Assembly: GCF_001425235.1 (NCBI RefSeq)
Contig: NZ_LMEA01000011.1
Span: 434,001-498,000 of the forward strand
Direction of reading: 5' to 3'
Source of the DNA: Devosia sp. Root413D1
Lineage (GTDB): Bacteria; Pseudomonadota; Alphaproteobacteria; Rhizobiales; Devosiaceae
Length of the DNA: 64,000 nucleotides
Shown here piece by piece: positions 10,982 through 46,854 of this stretch. Position 1 is the stretch's first letter. The number at the start of each line of letters is the position of its first letter. The notes below the pieces were generated by a model. That model had not been told where the DNA came from and did no database searches. It saw only the letters and a list, made by a program, of their open reading frames with translations. The translations under genes and the position numbers were made by a program.

Positions 10982-11025
10982 GGGTTCCTCCTCGGTTGGG
11001 ACGCCGGCCCTGTGCGGGTTTGCGC

Positions 11026-11042
11026 CTGAACCGCGGCTGAAC
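11026..11042 (-). promoter_or_regulatory. direct repeat TTCA-(11 bp)-TTCA upstream of the DUF4424 gene
   Basis: On the minus strand, GTTCAGCCGCGGTTCAG: two GTTCAG hexamers 11 bp apart, 45 bases upstream of the ATG at 10981. Same architecture and orientation to the gene as at 3065 and 5835. Confidence 0.55.
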
Positions 11043-11050
11043 CGGCCGGA

Positions 11051-11665
11051 TCAGAGCCGCCGCACCGGCTGCCTGAGGATGGTCTTCAGTTTGTCCGGCG
11101 CGACCTTGCGCGGATCGCTGAGATAGATCTCGTGATGGTGGCCGGTCTCCTTGAGCCCGTTCCCCGGCACAAATTCCTGATGCAGCCGCGCCAGCGTCGG
11201 CGCCTCGTCGTCATAGCTGCCGATATGCAGCGTCTGCACCGACAGGCCCTCGTGATAGGTCTCGAGCCTGAGGCTCGCCGGCGCCGCGCCAAGCTTCTTG
11301 CCTGTCTTCTCGACAGCCTTCTCAAACTGCCTGGTCGTGACGAAATCCGGCTGCAGGATCATGATCGTCCACTGCCAGTCGCTCTTCTGGCGGGTGAGAA
11401 ACGTCGACATGTCGTCGGCCCACCACAGCGCCTCCAGCGGCCCGACCACGTAGTCGCGGCCGAGCTCCGCCTTCGCCGCGAACTTCATCGCGTAGCTCAC
11501 CGAAAAGAGCCAGGCGACGCCCGTCTTGTAGGCCTCCGCGCTGTTGGGATCGCCTGCACCATCGATCTGCACATAGTGCAGCGGCGGCACGTCGACGATC
11601 TCGAACTCACCCTTGGGCGGGTTGTAAAGCGCCTTGTGCTGCTTCTTCAGGTCGAGCTTTTCCAT
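11051..11665 (-). CDS. GyrI-like small-molecule-binding domain protein
   Basis: 204 residues, all one GyrI-like (SOUL/AraC-effector) domain: VDVPPLHYVQIDGAGDPN at residues 25-42, the WTIMILQPDFV core strand and the ETYHEGLSVQTLHIGSY element. Such proteins bind small cationic or hydrophobic ligands; some hydrolyse or sequester them. The gene starts one base after the stop of an Lrp-family regulator, so the two are one operon and this protein may handle the regulator's ligand (inference). Confidence 0.85.
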   Translation of the reverse strand: MEKLDLKKQHKALYNPPKGEFEIVDVPPLHYVQIDGAGDPNSAEAYKTGVAWLFSVSYAMKFAAKAELGRDYVVGPLEALWWADDMSTFLTRQKSDWQWTIMILQPDFVTTRQFEKAVEKTGKKLGAAPASLRLETYHEGLSVQTLHIGSYDDEAPTLARLHQEFVPGNGLKETGHHHEIYLSDPRKVAPDKLKTILRQPVRRL

Positions 11666-41162: not shown

Positions 41163-42314
41163 CTACCGATGATCAGGTGCGAGGTAGGCGATCACCAACG
41201 CCGCCACCGCCACGACCGCCCCGATCGGCCCGAGCCAGCCAATATCAAGGTTCTCGAGCACCAGGCCGCCCACCAGCGCCGAGAGCGCCCCGCCGAGATT
41301 CATCGAGGTGAGGTTCAGCGACGCCGAGAGCGGCACCGCCGCCGGCGCCAGCGCGGCCAGCCGGTGCAGCTGTGGCGGAAAGAAGCCCCACGACACCACG
41401 CCGTAGAGCAGCATGTGGAAAAGGAACGCCGGCAGCACGGCGGGCCGCGGCAGCATCGCCAGCAGCGGTACGGCGGCCAGCAGCACAACCATCAGCCCGC
41501 CGATCACCAGCATGGTCTGCCTGCCCCCGATCCGATCGGCCAGCCGGCCGCCGAAGAAATTGCCGAACACCGCGCCGACGCCGAAGGCAAACATCACCAG
41601 CGGCAGCAGCACGCGGTCGAGCCCGAGCAGGTCCGTGGTCACCGGCGCCAGGTAGTTGAAGAAGGTGAAGCTCGCCATCACCATCACGCCGGAAGCGAGC
41701 AGCGTCAGCGGCATCCCCGGCACCTTCAGCACGCTCAGCCGCTCTCGGATAGTTCGAGGGTCGCCGTGGATATCGCCAGGCAGCTTCAGCCACATCGTCG
41801 CCGAAGCGATGATCGCGAGGACGCCAAGCCCGAGATAAGCGACGCGCCAGCCAAGGAACTCCGCCACCAGCGCCGAGGCCGGCACACCGACCGCCACCGC
41901 GATAGAGCCGCCCATCACCACCGTCGAAATCGCCGAACCGCGTTTACCCGGTGCCGCCAGGGCCACCGCGGTCGCCTGCGCGGTCGAGGTGAACAGCCCC
42001 GCGCCCAGCGCCATGCAGGTTCGAGCCAGCACCAGCAGCAGGAAGCCGGGCAGCACCCCGAGCAACAGGCACATCAGCCCGAACAGCAGCTCGGCTCCGG
42101 CGACTACCGAGCGCCGGTCGAGGTGCCCGAACAGGGTCGAGAGCAGCGGCGTGCCGATGCCATAGGCGATGGAATAGCCGAAGATCAGGTAGCCGGCCTG
42201 CGCCAGGCTGACGCCGGTTTCGGTCGCAATGGCGGGCAGCACGCTGACGATGAGCGAACTCTCGACGCTGCCGGCAAATGCCCCCAGCGCCAACCACAGC
42301 AGTCGCACGTCCAT
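41163..42314 (-). CDS. MFS transporter (second pump of the ArsR locus)
   Basis: 383 residues, 12 helices. N-terminus RLLWLALGAFAGSVESSLIVSVLPAIA, motif A in GIGTPLLSTLFGHLDRRSV, and a motif C-like proline region (GSIAVAVGVPASALVAEFLGWR). It is similar in length and pattern to the pump upstream (42413), so they are probably a tandem duplication. Efflux of a drug or other small molecule is likely; the substrate is unknown. The 98-bp spacer suggests either co-transcription or its own promoter. Confidence 0.88.
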   Translation of the reverse strand: MDVRLLWLALGAFAGSVESSLIVSVLPAIATETGVSLAQAGYLIFGYSIAYGIGTPLLSTLFGHLDRRSVVAGAELLFGLMCLLLGVLPGFLLLVLARTCMALGAGLFTSTAQATAVALAAPGKRGSAISTVVMGGSIAVAVGVPASALVAEFLGWRVAYLGLGVLAIIASATMWLKLPGDIHGDPRTIRERLSVLKVPGMPLTLLASGVMVMASFTFFNYLAPVTTDLLGLDRVLLPLVMFAFGVGAVFGNFFGGRLADRIGGRQTMLVIGGLMVVLLAAVPLLAMLPRPAVLPAFLFHMLLYGVVSWGFFPPQLHRLAALAPAAVPLSASLNLTSMNLGGALSALVGGLVLENLDIGWLGPIGAVVAVAALVIAYLAPDHR

Positions 42315-42412
42315 CGTCGGAAACCCCTCGCCCGACGATGGTTAGGAGAGCCCCCGACGCCGGTCAAGCCGCCGGGGTCTAAGCCTTTCAGCCGAGCCCG
42401 GCGGCCTCGACT

Positions 42413-43585
42413 TTAGCCAAGCCGGGGCATGGCGATGGCGCGCGGCCGGCTGAGGAGCAGCACCCCGAGCGCCAGCGCCGGGAAGATCGCCGCTACCAGC
42501 CCGAGTTCATTGATCGGCAGGTGCTCAAGCACCAGGCCGCCGACCAGTGCGCCCAGCGCCGTGCCGAGATAAAGGAACGAGGCGTTGAGCGACAAGGCCA
42601 GTGGCGCCGAACTCGGCGACAGGGCAACGACGCGGCTCACCTGCCCCGGCACGAACATCCAGCCGGCAATGCCCCAGGCCACCATGAAGGCGAAGTAAGC
42701 CGGGGTGATCGCCGCCTGCGGCAGCAATGGGATGGCGCCGAGCAGCAGCAGGAAGCCGATATTGAGCACCGCCGCGATGGTGACCGTCGCCTGCGCGCCG
42801 ATCCGATCCGACAGTTGCCCACCCAGCGGATTGCCCAGCGCCGCGCCGAGCCCATAGGCCAGCATGACGAAGGGCAGCAGCCCGGCATCGAGCCCCATCA
42901 GCCTGGTGGTCACCGGTCCGAGGTAAATGAACGCCGCAAATGGCCCCGTCATGTAGAGCAGGATCGTCAGCAGCGCCGGCAACAGGCCCGGCACGCTGAG
43001 CACGCCCAGCCGCTCGCCCAGCCCGCGCCGGTCGCCCTCTATGCCCCTGGGCAACATCAGCCAGATCGCCGCCGCGGTCAGCACGCCGACCCCGGCAATG
43101 GCGAAATAGGTGCCGCGCCACCCGGCAAAGCCCGAGAGAAACGCCCCGATCGGCGCCCCCAGCGCCACTGCCATGGTGGTGCCGGCAACCACCGTCGCCA
43201 CGGCCCTCGCCCGGCGTTCAGCCGGCGCCAGCGTCACCGCCGCGGCCTGTGCGGTCGCCGCGTAGAGCCCGGCCGAAGCAGCGATGATCAGCCGCGCCAC
43301 CAGCAACATAGCGTAACCCTGCGACAGGGCCGCGAGCAGCGCGCCGGCGGCGAACACCAGCGCCACTACCGCCAGCAGCGGACGCCGGTCGAACCGGCCG
43401 GTGAACGCCGAAAGCACCGGCGCCCCCACCGCGTAGGCGATGGCATAGGCGAAAACCAGATAACCGGCCTGGGTGATCGTCACGCCGCTATCGGCCGCGA
43501 TGGCCGGCAGAAGCGTAGCGATGACGAAGCCCTCGACGCCGACGGCAAAGGTGCCGAGCGCGAGCCAGATGAGCCGCGTGTCCAT
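42413..43585 (-). CDS. MFS transporter next to an ArsR regulator
   Basis: 390 residues, 12 helices: RLIWLALGTFAVGVEGFVIATLLPAIA, AYAVGAPVLSAFTGRFDRRPL, then ALGAPIGAFLSGFAGWRGTY. It is a DHA1-type efflux pump. Its start is 113 bases from an ArsR-type gene on the other strand, and two 18-bp operator-like palindromes lie between them, so the regulator very probably represses this gene. Substrate unknown. Confidence 0.9.
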   Translation of the reverse strand: MDTRLIWLALGTFAVGVEGFVIATLLPAIAADSGVTITQAGYLVFAYAIAYAVGAPVLSAFTGRFDRRPLLAVVALVFAAGALLAALSQGYAMLLVARLIIAASAGLYAATAQAAAVTLAPAERRARAVATVVAGTTMAVALGAPIGAFLSGFAGWRGTYFAIAGVGVLTAAAIWLMLPRGIEGDRRGLGERLGVLSVPGLLPALLTILLYMTGPFAAFIYLGPVTTRLMGLDAGLLPFVMLAYGLGAALGNPLGGQLSDRIGAQATVTIAAVLNIGFLLLLGAIPLLPQAAITPAYFAFMVAWGIAGWMFVPGQVSRVVALSPSSAPLALSLNASFLYLGTALGALVGGLVLEHLPINELGLVAAIFPALALGVLLLSRPRAIAMPRLG

Positions 43586-44606: not shown

Positions 44607-44882
44607 CTACCGCTCGGTTGACCGCAGCACCACCGCGACCAAATCCGCCCGCGCGCCGTCATCGGGCAGGTCATGCGGGCCAAAACCCTCCGCGGTGTTG
44701 ACATTCAGCACCACGCCGGTGGTGCGGAACCCCAGTACTTCTTCGAAGCCACCGCTCTCGCCCTGCACCATCAGCGGCGCCGAGGGGTCAAACGTCTCGA
44801 GCATGGCGATCACGTCGCCCACGGTCAGCCCGGCGAGCTCGGGGGCCTTGGGTGCATGGCGTTTTTCGAGAAGGTCGAGCAC
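44607..44882 (-). CDS. small conserved hypothetical protein
   Basis: 91 residues from a GTG at 44882 with AGGA upstream; an in-frame start at 44951 would add 23 residues. The body (LTVGDVIAMLETFDPSAPLMVQGESGGFEEVL) resembles small proteins that carry a DPxxPVxVxGxxGG turn. No function is known. The acidic C-terminus ends in DLVAVVLRSTER. It reads away from the ADC/LuxR fusion gene. Confidence 0.6.
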   Translation of the reverse strand: MLDLLEKRHAPKAPELAGLTVGDVIAMLETFDPSAPLMVQGESGGFEEVLGFRTTGVVLNVNTAEGFGPHDLPDDGARADLVAVVLRSTER

Positions 44883-44991
44883 GGCGGTCTGTCCTGAGAT
44901 GCATTCTCGAAGGGACAGTGCGCAGCACACGGCAAAACCCGCACCCCACAAATGAGGGGTTCAACCGCCTATGGGTAGCATTGCTTTCACA

Positions 44992-45033
44992 GCGCTTTCA
45001 GGAAAAGTTGCAAACGTTTCTGGCTGAAAGCGC
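44992..45033. repeat. two-tier hairpin with GGAAAAGTTGCA core, copy 2
   Basis: Outer arms GCGCTTTCA/TGAAAGCGC and inner GGAAA...TTTCT around AGTTGCAAACG. Same plan and core as 38561. Confidence 0.6.
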
Positions 45034-45061
45034 GATAAATCAAAGGCTTACAGACACCTCT

Positions 45062-45078
45062 TCGGTTCAGTGAACCGA
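45062..45078. repeat. palindrome TCGGTTCAGTGAACCGA
   Basis: A 17-bp perfect odd palindrome 11 bases beyond the LuxR-fusion stop (45089, minus strand). Its TTCA-G-TGAA core is the one seen at 13072. Confidence 0.5.
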
Positions 45079-45088
45079 TGACCTGGCT

Positions 45089-46378
45089 CTAGAGATACTG
45101 CAGCCGCGCCACGAGGTGGCCGAGCTCGGATTGCTTGTTGATCCCGAGCTTGTCGTAGACCGTCTTCAGCGTCGAGCGCGCCGTATGCTCGGAAATCCTG
45201 AGTTCCGCCGCCGCCCCACGCGGCGCATGGCCAACGCCCACCAGCGCGGCGAGCCTGGCTTCCGCCCCGGTCAGCCCGAACAGTTGCAGCATCTGTGCGG
45301 CATCGCGCCGCTCCGGCCCGCGCGGATCGGCCAGCAGCACCAGCGCCGCATCGCCGCCATGCTCGCCATGCTCGAGCGGCATCACATAAGCGAGCAGGTG
45401 CCCACCGCCGGGGCGGGTCAGTGCGATCGGTTCCGATACTCGCGGCCCCTTGCGCGCGCAACTCATCTTCAGCGCCTGACAAAGCGCGTGCTTTTCGGCC
45501 GGCACGCCGCTCAGCAGTGGCTCCCCTGCCCGCGAACCATCCGGTCCGAGCAAGGCCCGCCCGCTGGCATTAGCTTCGATCAGCGTCCCATCCTGCCGCA
45601 CCACGGCAGCAGCCCGGCCGGTATCCTCGATCAGCGCGAGAAACACCGAGGCGGCATTGCCCGAAGCGGTTCGCCCCACCACCCGGGGCTCGCTCCAGAT
45701 CGAATTCACGCGCACCGCATCGAGCGCGAACACGTACTCGACCGGCCGCAGCGCCCGCATGTAGTCGGGCGCCGCGTCGGTGATCTCCAGCGTCACGATG
45801 TCTGCGTCCGCCAGGTCCGCCACGGTCGAGTCCGCATGCTTGATCAGCCCTGCATCGGTCAGCCCGAGGAAGTTGTCGACGCCCGACAGCGCCGGCCGCA
45901 GTTCACCTGGCCGGATCGTCGCCCGCAACCAGTCGACCCCGCCGACCGAGGCAACGCCATGCAACAGTTCCCCATCGCGCCAGGTCCGCGCCACGCCCTC
46001 GACCGTCGCGCCCGAATAGAACTTCCGCATCGTCGCGGCGCCCGGCTCATCCATGATGTTGCCCATCACGAACATGCCCTCGCCGATGTCGGAACCTCGC
46101 CCCCCCTCCACCGACACCCCGACCAGCCCACGCATATAGGGCGCGATGCCGTAGCCGGTGGGCGCCTGGTAGATGCCGAGCACCCCGATGCTGGCCGGCG
46201 ACAGCACCAGACCATCGGGCAGGAACGGCCGCACCGCATCGGGATCGATCCGGAACCCCGCCCAGATCACGTCGATGGCAAGCTTGTGGAAGGGCGGCAC
46301 CATGTCGGCAGCCGGACGCAGCGCCGAGAGTGGCCTGTCGAGATCCCTGAGGGACTTGCGAACCTTATCGCCCAGCAT
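45089..46378 (-). CDS. acetoacetate-decarboxylase-like / PAS-like / LuxR-type HTH fusion protein
   Basis: 429 residues in one frame. About 28-230 reads as an acetoacetate-decarboxylase-fold domain (FHKLAIDVIWAGFRIDPDAV, FLPDGLVLSPASIGVLGIYQ, then MDEPGAATMRKFYSGATVEG, with K119 a possible Schiff-base lysine). About 245-355 looks like a PAS sensor (AAVVRQDGTLIEANASGRALLG). About 366-425 is a LuxR/GerE-type HTH (LTGAEARLAALVGVG, then SEHTARSTLKTVYDKLGINKQSEL). It is probably a transcription factor that senses a small oxo-acid or fatty compound with the enzyme-like domain. No obvious target gene lies beside it. The decarboxylase assignment is weaker than the HTH. Confidence 0.75.
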   Translation of the reverse strand: MLGDKVRKSLRDLDRPLSALRPAADMVPPFHKLAIDVIWAGFRIDPDAVRPFLPDGLVLSPASIGVLGIYQAPTGYGIAPYMRGLVGVSVEGGRGSDIGEGMFVMGNIMDEPGAATMRKFYSGATVEGVARTWRDGELLHGVASVGGVDWLRATIRPGELRPALSGVDNFLGLTDAGLIKHADSTVADLADADIVTLEITDAAPDYMRALRPVEYVFALDAVRVNSIWSEPRVVGRTASGNAASVFLALIEDTGRAAAVVRQDGTLIEANASGRALLGPDGSRAGEPLLSGVPAEKHALCQALKMSCARKGPRVSEPIALTRPGGGHLLAYVMPLEHGEHGGDAALVLLADPRGPERRDAAQMLQLFGLTGAEARLAALVGVGHAPRGAAAELRISEHTARSTLKTVYDKLGINKQSELGHLVARLQYL

Positions 46379-46524
46379 CGGCTTTCCCCGGCCGAATCAA
46401 TCGAACTCGAAACGGCTGGCCCATCCGCGCGCGACGCCCCCGCACAGATGAGGCATGTAATCGATCTCACAAATTCTAGGGAAATCGCCCGGCCGGATCA
46501 ATCGACTTACATTGAGGCCTTGCG

Positions 46525-46854
46525 TCATTTCTCGATTGCCCCCAGCCGCGCCAGCACTTCGGGCGGAATGCCGTAGTGGCGGATGGCGTCGCGCTGGTCA
46601 CGCATCCCGCAGGCTTCGCGCTGCACGAAGAACTTCCACACGTCGCGCGCCGCGGCCTTGACCAGGATCAAGCGTTCATCGGCTGAGCCCGGCGCCGCAT
46701 CGAACGCCTTGAGCGCCGCCATCGCCTTCTCCACCTGCCGCCCGTGATAGCCGAGCGAGGCGGCCTTCTCGGCCATCACCTCGCTTTCGATGGGGCCGAA
46801 GCCGCTGGTCAGTCGTTGGCGCAGTTCGGCGAGGTCGGCGATGCTCAAGCTCAT
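46525..46854 (-). CDS. DUF6665-like small protein
   Basis: 109 residues, mostly helical: SLSIADLAELRQRLTSGFGPIESEVMAEKAASLGYHGRQVEKAMAALKAF in the first half, then DVWKFFVQREACGMRDQRDAIRHYGIPPEVLARLG. The QRE-x-CG-x-RD-x-x-x-x-I-x-x-YGIP pattern at the end is conserved in a family I recall as DUF6665, found in Hyphomicrobiales. Function unknown. It is divergent from the EamA exporter gene. Confidence 0.68.
   Translation of the reverse strand: MSLSIADLAELRQRLTSGFGPIESEVMAEKAASLGYHGRQVEKAMAALKAFDAAPGSADERLILVKAAARDVWKFFVQREACGMRDQRDAIRHYGIPPEVLARLGAIEK

Follow-up and report, generated by a model that had tools for sequence, protein, structure and literature searches.

The window analysed here, a 64,000-nucleotide stretch of the genome of Devosia sp. 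Root413D1 (Devosiaceae), carries on its minus strand a gene at 45089-46378, with an ATG at 46378 and a TAG stop at 45091-45089. Its 429-residue product joins a domain with the fold of acetoacetate decarboxylase (ADC; residues 20-239, 45662-46321) to a PAS-fold domain (residues 248-353, 45320-45637) and a helix-turn-helix (HTH) of LuxR/GerE type (residues 363-428, 45095-45292). The same strand carries, downstream of the fusion gene, a candidate operator at 44940-44960, the 18-base-pair (bp) dyad ACCCCTCATTTGTGGGGT followed by GCG. It is placed 57 bp ahead of the start of a small gene (44607-44882, GTG start after AGGA) encoding 91 amino acids, our proposed target or partner of the fusion protein. 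By architecture the fusion protein is a one-component system, with input-like and DNA-binding domains in a single polypeptide.

Domains and active site of the fusion protein

An earlier note on this DNA, made by inspection of the sequence, had proposed a single open frame with an ADC-like start, a PAS-like segment ahead of the HTH and the HTH itself at residues 366-425, and on all these points it proved right. Other genomes of the genus encode relatives that match the protein over its full or nearly full length, with identities of 98, 92, 89, 74, 71, 70, 70 and 62%; a further relative, in G094 (92%), is interrupted by a contig end. Such relatives rule out a chance or antisense frame. The closest relative with a species name comes from Devosia insulae DS-56 (Devosiaceae).

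The AlphaFold2 model comprises three domains, with a mean predicted local distance difference test score (pLDDT) of 81.8 that rises above 90 in 14 of the 22 ten-residue blocks covering residues 21-240; the relative placing of the three domains is uncertain because the predicted template modelling score (pTM) is 0.54. When residues 20-239 of the model were compared with the PDB, the best matches were ADC-fold proteins, with Z scores of 21-25 over 204-221 aligned residues (3c8w 24.8, 3bgt 24.4, MppR 22.4, Swit_4259 22.0 and 3cmb 21.2). The structure comparison of the N-terminal part, which belongs to the check that the note had suggested, points to the ADC fold and not to another one. Residues from about 248 to 353 matched PAS folds (Z about 9), and residues 363-428 matched LuxR-type HTH domains (Z 9-11), with DosR (1zlj) aligning to residues 362-428 at Z 11.1; the C-terminus is a four-helix LuxR-type HTH.

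Sequence profiles are fainter for the single protein. Scanned alone against Pfam, it gave matches that were all below the curated cut-offs: ADC at 26.4 bits (cut-off 29.8), PAS_4 at an E-value of 0.025 and GerE at 0.22. In an alignment of 21 members, ADC and GerE were each matched by 18 (E<=0.1); the orthologues in G101, G088 and G091 passed the ADC cut-off unaided, and those in G086 and G099 only after addition of a second piece. Pfam matched in the fusion protein neither the autoinducer-binding domain of quorum-sensing LuxR proteins nor the receiver domain of NarL/FixJ response regulators, the N-terminus having the ADC fold instead.

In ADC, Lys115 is reported to form a Schiff base, and its substitution to inactivate the enzyme (PMC4520260). 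The column of this lysine (K115 of the C. acetobutylicum enzyme) is occupied by T125 in the fusion protein and that of the following lysine by V126. The lysine was placed by a profile alignment with the genome's own ADC enzyme and by three MAFFT modes that took in both this enzyme and that of C. acetobutylicum, all of which agree; since the hhalign comparison of the fusion family with the genome's own enzyme is weak by itself (probability 59%), it is on this agreement that the residue alignment rests. At the position of Glu76 the MAFFT alignments place R83. Across 26 aligned members, near-copies included, Lys stands in the Schiff-base column once (in L131, which is gappy there) and Glu at position 76 never, counts that disfavour an active ADC enzyme. 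The pocket tyrosine Tyr74 of ADC corresponds to Y81 and is retained in 20 members. The true ADC enzyme encoded elsewhere in the same genome (G000:C13, L088) scores 183 bits, bears the lysine motif PKKL and retains both Lys and Glu76.

The fusion protein belongs to the ADC-like fold superfamily and, as judged from these residues, is not an ADC enzyme; its barrel is intact as a fold but most likely not a Schiff-base enzyme. With the Schiff-base lysine absent in 25 of the 26 members and Glu76 in all of them, the barrel most probably serves as a ligand sensor derived from a dead enzyme. The note had put K119 near the place of the Schiff-base lysine, an assignment that has to be abandoned. That residue lies outside the lysine column and aligns with R108 (MAFFT) or E109 (profile alignment) of the C. 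acetobutylicum enzyme, the methods differing by one position at K119 only; its column holds K, D, R, Q, E, T, S or N across the 26 members, with Lys in seven. Since K119 is variable and the lysine column holds T125, a keto-acid ligand held through a Schiff base is unsupported, and the non-covalent binding of a small ligand is still the natural expectation.

The candidate operator and the linked genes

In eight of the 11 known orthologue loci the intergenic DNA, from the stop of the regulator to the small gene, was aligned; it contains a single conserved block, present in all eight and flanked by variable sequence. The window copy of this block reads ACCCCTCATTTGTGGGGTGCG at 44960-44940, and the dyad consensus is ACCCCnCAwwTGnGGGGT. 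Upstream of the regulator no block was common to all seven loci aligned. As a separate observation, a partly conserved ATCGATT-like stretch is common to four close orthologue loci in the region before the regulator start (46379-46524 in the window).

A search pattern derived from the orthologue-locus dyads, CCCCNNNWWTGNGGGGTGCG, was run on 21 chosen genomes and, with up to one mismatch, yielded 20 rows, against 3 for the reversed control. Twelve matches were exact. Eleven of them adjoin the fusion gene, the 11 genomes that carry an orthologue having a single one apiece. The 12th (G000:C1:235681-235700, equivalent to L137:7682-7701) lies in the window's own genome, with a LysR gene on one side and a cytochrome c gene on the other, and is a possible extra target; G086 has an equivalent LysR-side stretch (92% identical DNA) with a one-mismatch site in the same place. 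Besides this G086 site, the eight one-mismatch rows comprise four paralogue loci, the opposite strand of one known site, and two sites at G086:C195 and G089:C17. A looser pattern, ACCCCN8GGGGTGCG with up to one mismatch, is present in 25 of 100 shuffles of the window; the evidence for the dyad is its conservation and position, not the rarity of the looser pattern in the window.

Seven orthologue sites and the G096 site served to train a matrix, which was applied to 13 paralogue genes, L050 (part of the training set) and L051 (a near-copy of L044 with a matrix score like that of L044) having been removed first. A nearby site was found at seven of the 13, with scores of 14.8-25.5 bits (L041 20.8, L042 19.5, L044 25.5, L046 22.7, L048 14.8, L049 20.0 and L129 20.7). 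The best scores in 20 random sequences of 15 kilobases (kb) were 7.4-18.7, with 19 at 14.3 or less; six of the seven paralogue sites exceed all 20 random bests, and the L048 site is unconvincing on its own against this range. The sites at L041, L042, L044 and L046 lie ahead of, or at the 5' edge of, a gene of the A5 kind described below. That at L048 precedes a hydrolase gene (Pfam), that at L129 precedes a gene whose product has weak SMP-30-like matches, and that at L049 is located past the regulator, where it has no clear target. Among 52 control loci (213 kb), scores above 13 bits were seen at L029, L075 and the two LysR-side loci L137 and L138, these last having been chosen for their motif. 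In 18 sites of our own selection, dyad positions 1-9 pair in 12, 17, 17, 17, 15, 4, 13, 16 and 3 cases.

The earlier note had suggested looking for a shared neighbour gene, and the 91-residue protein family supplies one. It is present in 12 of the 136 genomes of the window's taxonomic family, every one of which also carries a fusion gene, and 12 of its 13 copies adjoin a fusion gene, the neighbour in G096 being a paralogue; the contig that carries the 13th copy (G096:C698) stops some 40 bases into the start of the regulator. Three members scanned, the window's included, gave no Pfam or NCBIfam match (E<=1), and the predicted structure is a poor model (pLDDT 63).

Some fusion paralogues adjoin instead genes for unnamed proteins of 170-200 amino acids with a signal-peptide-like start, as judged by eye, which we call A5. 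The taxonomic family holds seven copies in five of its 136 genomes, six of them adjoining a fusion gene or standing in tandem with a copy that does; genes of this kind lie at L042:9145-9708, L044:2033-2542, L046:10237-10740 and 11022-11558, and L056:2800-3303, and the four proteins scanned had no Pfam match. One further copy adjoins the fusion gene of G288. Another A5-like gene adjoins L123:7498-8778 (G288:C44), which encodes a PAS-HTH regulator whose N-terminus is different and not of the ADC kind; here the sensor domain seems to have been exchanged within the same gene context. Copies of A5 lacking a fusion gene in the stretch inspected occur in G311 (three), at G288:C3 and at G104:C1:1771228.

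Two further features of the window may be recorded. Upstream of the fusion gene and on the same strand, 46525-46854 encodes a DUF6665 protein (PF20370, E 1.6e-20); most orthologue loci retain it together with an EamA transporter. At 41163-43585 two tandem genes with 45% identity, which by sequence look like MFS-type transporters, are probably a duplication.

Distribution and descent

The domain order is not confined to the window, as a search of other genomes, likewise suggested by the note, established. Fusions are present in at least 14 of the 136 genomes of the family (G000, G085, G086, G087, G088, G091, G094, G095, G096, G099, G101, G102, G104 and G108), with four copies each in G104 and G102. 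At the level of the order (397 genomes, E<=1e-20), ADC-covering matches were listed, apart from the window's own genome, in three genomes of one genus (G288, G311 and G477). Among the matches listed for the class (385 genomes, E<=1e-30) the ADC part was covered only in the window's own genome, which was also the only genome among the matches listed when the ADC domain alone was searched in the phylum (398 genomes, E<=1e-4). Up to 13 candidates were scored per genome in the family, four in the order and class and seven in the phylum, and the counts are lower bounds. An HTH half encoded as a separate gene, which the note had envisaged for relatives, was not seen among the orthologues; the PAS-HTH half by itself is widespread with other N-termini, according to the family- and order-level searches.

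A plasmid search with the whole protein returned 74 records. In none of them did the match extend over 80% of the query, and the 20 listed cover 40-53%, all from residue 201 on; the ADC domain alone had no plasmid match at E<=1. A viral structure library returned, at E<=0.001, kinase, PAS or unrelated proteins and none bearing the ADC name. One ADC-PAS-HTH gene, L129:6604-8007 (G288:C43), has its HTH end in a different frame, through an assembly error or as a pseudogene.

A tree built from the C-terminal half (69 rows, of which 23 have ADC) puts the ADC group on one side of a branch with support 77/64, recovered in 74% of 200 bootstrap trees. Since the group lies on one side of a branch, albeit a modestly supported one, a single origin of the ADC-HTH fusion is likely, although not proven.

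One orthologue is distinguished by its architecture. L043 (G087:C43) has 324 residues, keeping the ADC and HTH domains and missing the PAS domain, and its gene neighbourhood is that of the fusion gene in the window (DUF6665 63%, EamA transporter 78%, aldo-keto reductase 76%, GNAT 60%). With nine orthologues it forms a clade of ten (100/95); its position outside the other nine has a support of only 92/52, L043 filling just 37% of the tree columns. Because the remaining ADC members have the PAS region, the simplest reading is that L043 lost it. The locus retains the dyad and the 91-residue gene, and since ADC, HTH and neighbourhood persist without PAS, that domain is not needed for whatever links the regulator with the locus. 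L043 thus offers a naturally PAS-free form in which the roles of the two sensor-like domains can be told apart.

Taken as a group, and on balance, we believe that the fusions make up a new one-component regulator family, for which a degenerate ADC barrel would have been recruited once as ligand sensor on a LuxR-type HTH. The family would then have multiplied in the Devosiaceae and spread to one further genus of the order, and every copy would be linked to an orphan target gene of its own by way of a common kind of dyad operator.

Proposed mechanism and comparison with known systems

Computation shows the order and the folds of the domains, the missing catalytic residues, the gene linkage and the conservation of the motif, whereas DNA binding, ligand and direction of regulation are inferred. 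The protein is in our judgement probably a soluble transcription factor, a one-component system of LuxR-HTH type, with the degenerate ADC barrel as its input and the HTH binding the dyad. The catalytically dead barrel would bind a small molecule in the former active-site cone, and the PAS domain, whose fold is predicted by the model, may act as a coupling or second input module. The ligand would alter the dimer, and the HTH pair of this homodimer would bind the 18-bp dyad ahead of the 91-residue gene and switch that gene; both the HTH-dyad contact and the choice of target are proposed because of the linkage, the position and the dyad itself. Paralogues would use the same kind of site before other neighbours, several of which have a signal-peptide-like start.

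Where the input enters might be seen differently. Sensing could fall to the PAS domain, with the ADC barrel serving only as a platform for dimerisation or protein contacts. In favour of this, PAS-HTH regulators such as EL222 and VqmA match the C-terminal half of the fusion protein (VqmA-ligand entries are among the structure matches); the C-terminal module also occurs widely without ADC. We consider this unlikely, given that the syntenic L043 without PAS still keeps ADC, HTH, the 91-residue gene and the dyad, and that the PAS part of the fusion protein has no profile match over the cut-off. Far less probable still is a trigger enzyme, in which the ADC domain would catalyse through other residues and report substrate level to the HTH. 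The retention of the pocket tyrosine is in keeping with that idea, as is the report that relatives with the ADC fold, MppR among them, carry out other reactions; MppR itself, however, is described as relying on an active-site lysine (PMC10367076 for both), and the near-complete loss of Lys and Glu76 argues in the opposite direction.

The dyad, for its part, could belong to another regulator or to an RNA element, with the fusion protein acting elsewhere. Its CCCC and GGGG arms could pair as RNA, its two innermost bases are not symmetric, and similar dyads adjoin two PAS-HTH genes without ADC and precede the LysR gene. This too we hold doubtful: no terminator-like element was found in 44850-45100, although shuffles average only 0.4; the inner CA/TG bases, needless for an RNA loop, are symmetric in 13 and 16 of the 18 selected sites; and similar sites recur by paralogues whose neighbours are unrelated.

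Several observations weigh against a ligand-sensing barrel acting through this dyad. The barrel could be structural and not a sensor. Both pattern and matrix were built from orthologue loci, so that matches at those loci are not independent, and a single random sequence among the 20 scored as high as 18.7 bits. Six of the 13 paralogue genes (two at L045, and those at L047, L130, L131 and L132) lack a site that scores above the random range, and L130 carries ahead of its A5 gene a perfect dyad of different letters, ACCTAGCAATTGCTAGGT. Positions 6 and 9 of the dyad are asymmetric, pairing in 4 and 3 of the 18 sites. Similar dyads, ATCCCCCATTCGGGGGAT (L029:2274) and ATCCCCCAAATGGGGGAT (L075:1442), are found at PAS-HTH loci without a matched ADC part, and the site may therefore go with this HTH type generally and not with the ADC domain. 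The reading that we prefer is a degenerate ADC barrel controlling an HTH at the dyad. The predicted operator and the dedicated neighbour gene of the fusion family make DNA binding and ligand directly testable, and the fusion family offers two unstudied gene families as possible targets.

Among known regulators, RamA of Corynebacterium glutamicum is a LuxR-type regulator with another sensor domain. Its likeness to the fusion protein is weak and at the level of the HTH only (NCBIfam 12.2 bits, E 0.069), and it is not of the same family; RamA is reported to bind GGGG/CCCC motifs, and the accessible part of that report describes no 18-bp dyad for it (PMC4847777). DUF2071 (PF09844) resembles the barrel in having an ADC-like fold without the Schiff-base lysine but retains Glu76, and an HTH fusion is not mentioned in the accessible part of its description (PMC4520260). 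In the open-licence literature we found no description of an ADC-HTH fusion or of an ADC-barrel sensor. The ADC family proper (PF06314; 3bgt, 3bh2 and 3c8w) shares the fold of residues 20-239 at 16-18% identity over 212-221 aligned residues, whereas the fusion protein is without the Schiff-base lysine and Glu76 and is joined to PAS and HTH. MppR, the best single-sequence PDB match (E 0.0066), and Swit_4259 are members of the ADC-like superfamily with the same fold (Z 22) and are stand-alone proteins. The PAS-LuxR one-component regulators EL222 and VqmA, which have sensor roles, share the PAS-HTH arrangement at the C-terminus and are not known to carry an ADC domain. The conversion of enzyme folds into sensors is a known route to new regulators, and catalysis-free ADC barrels could serve as biosensor parts.
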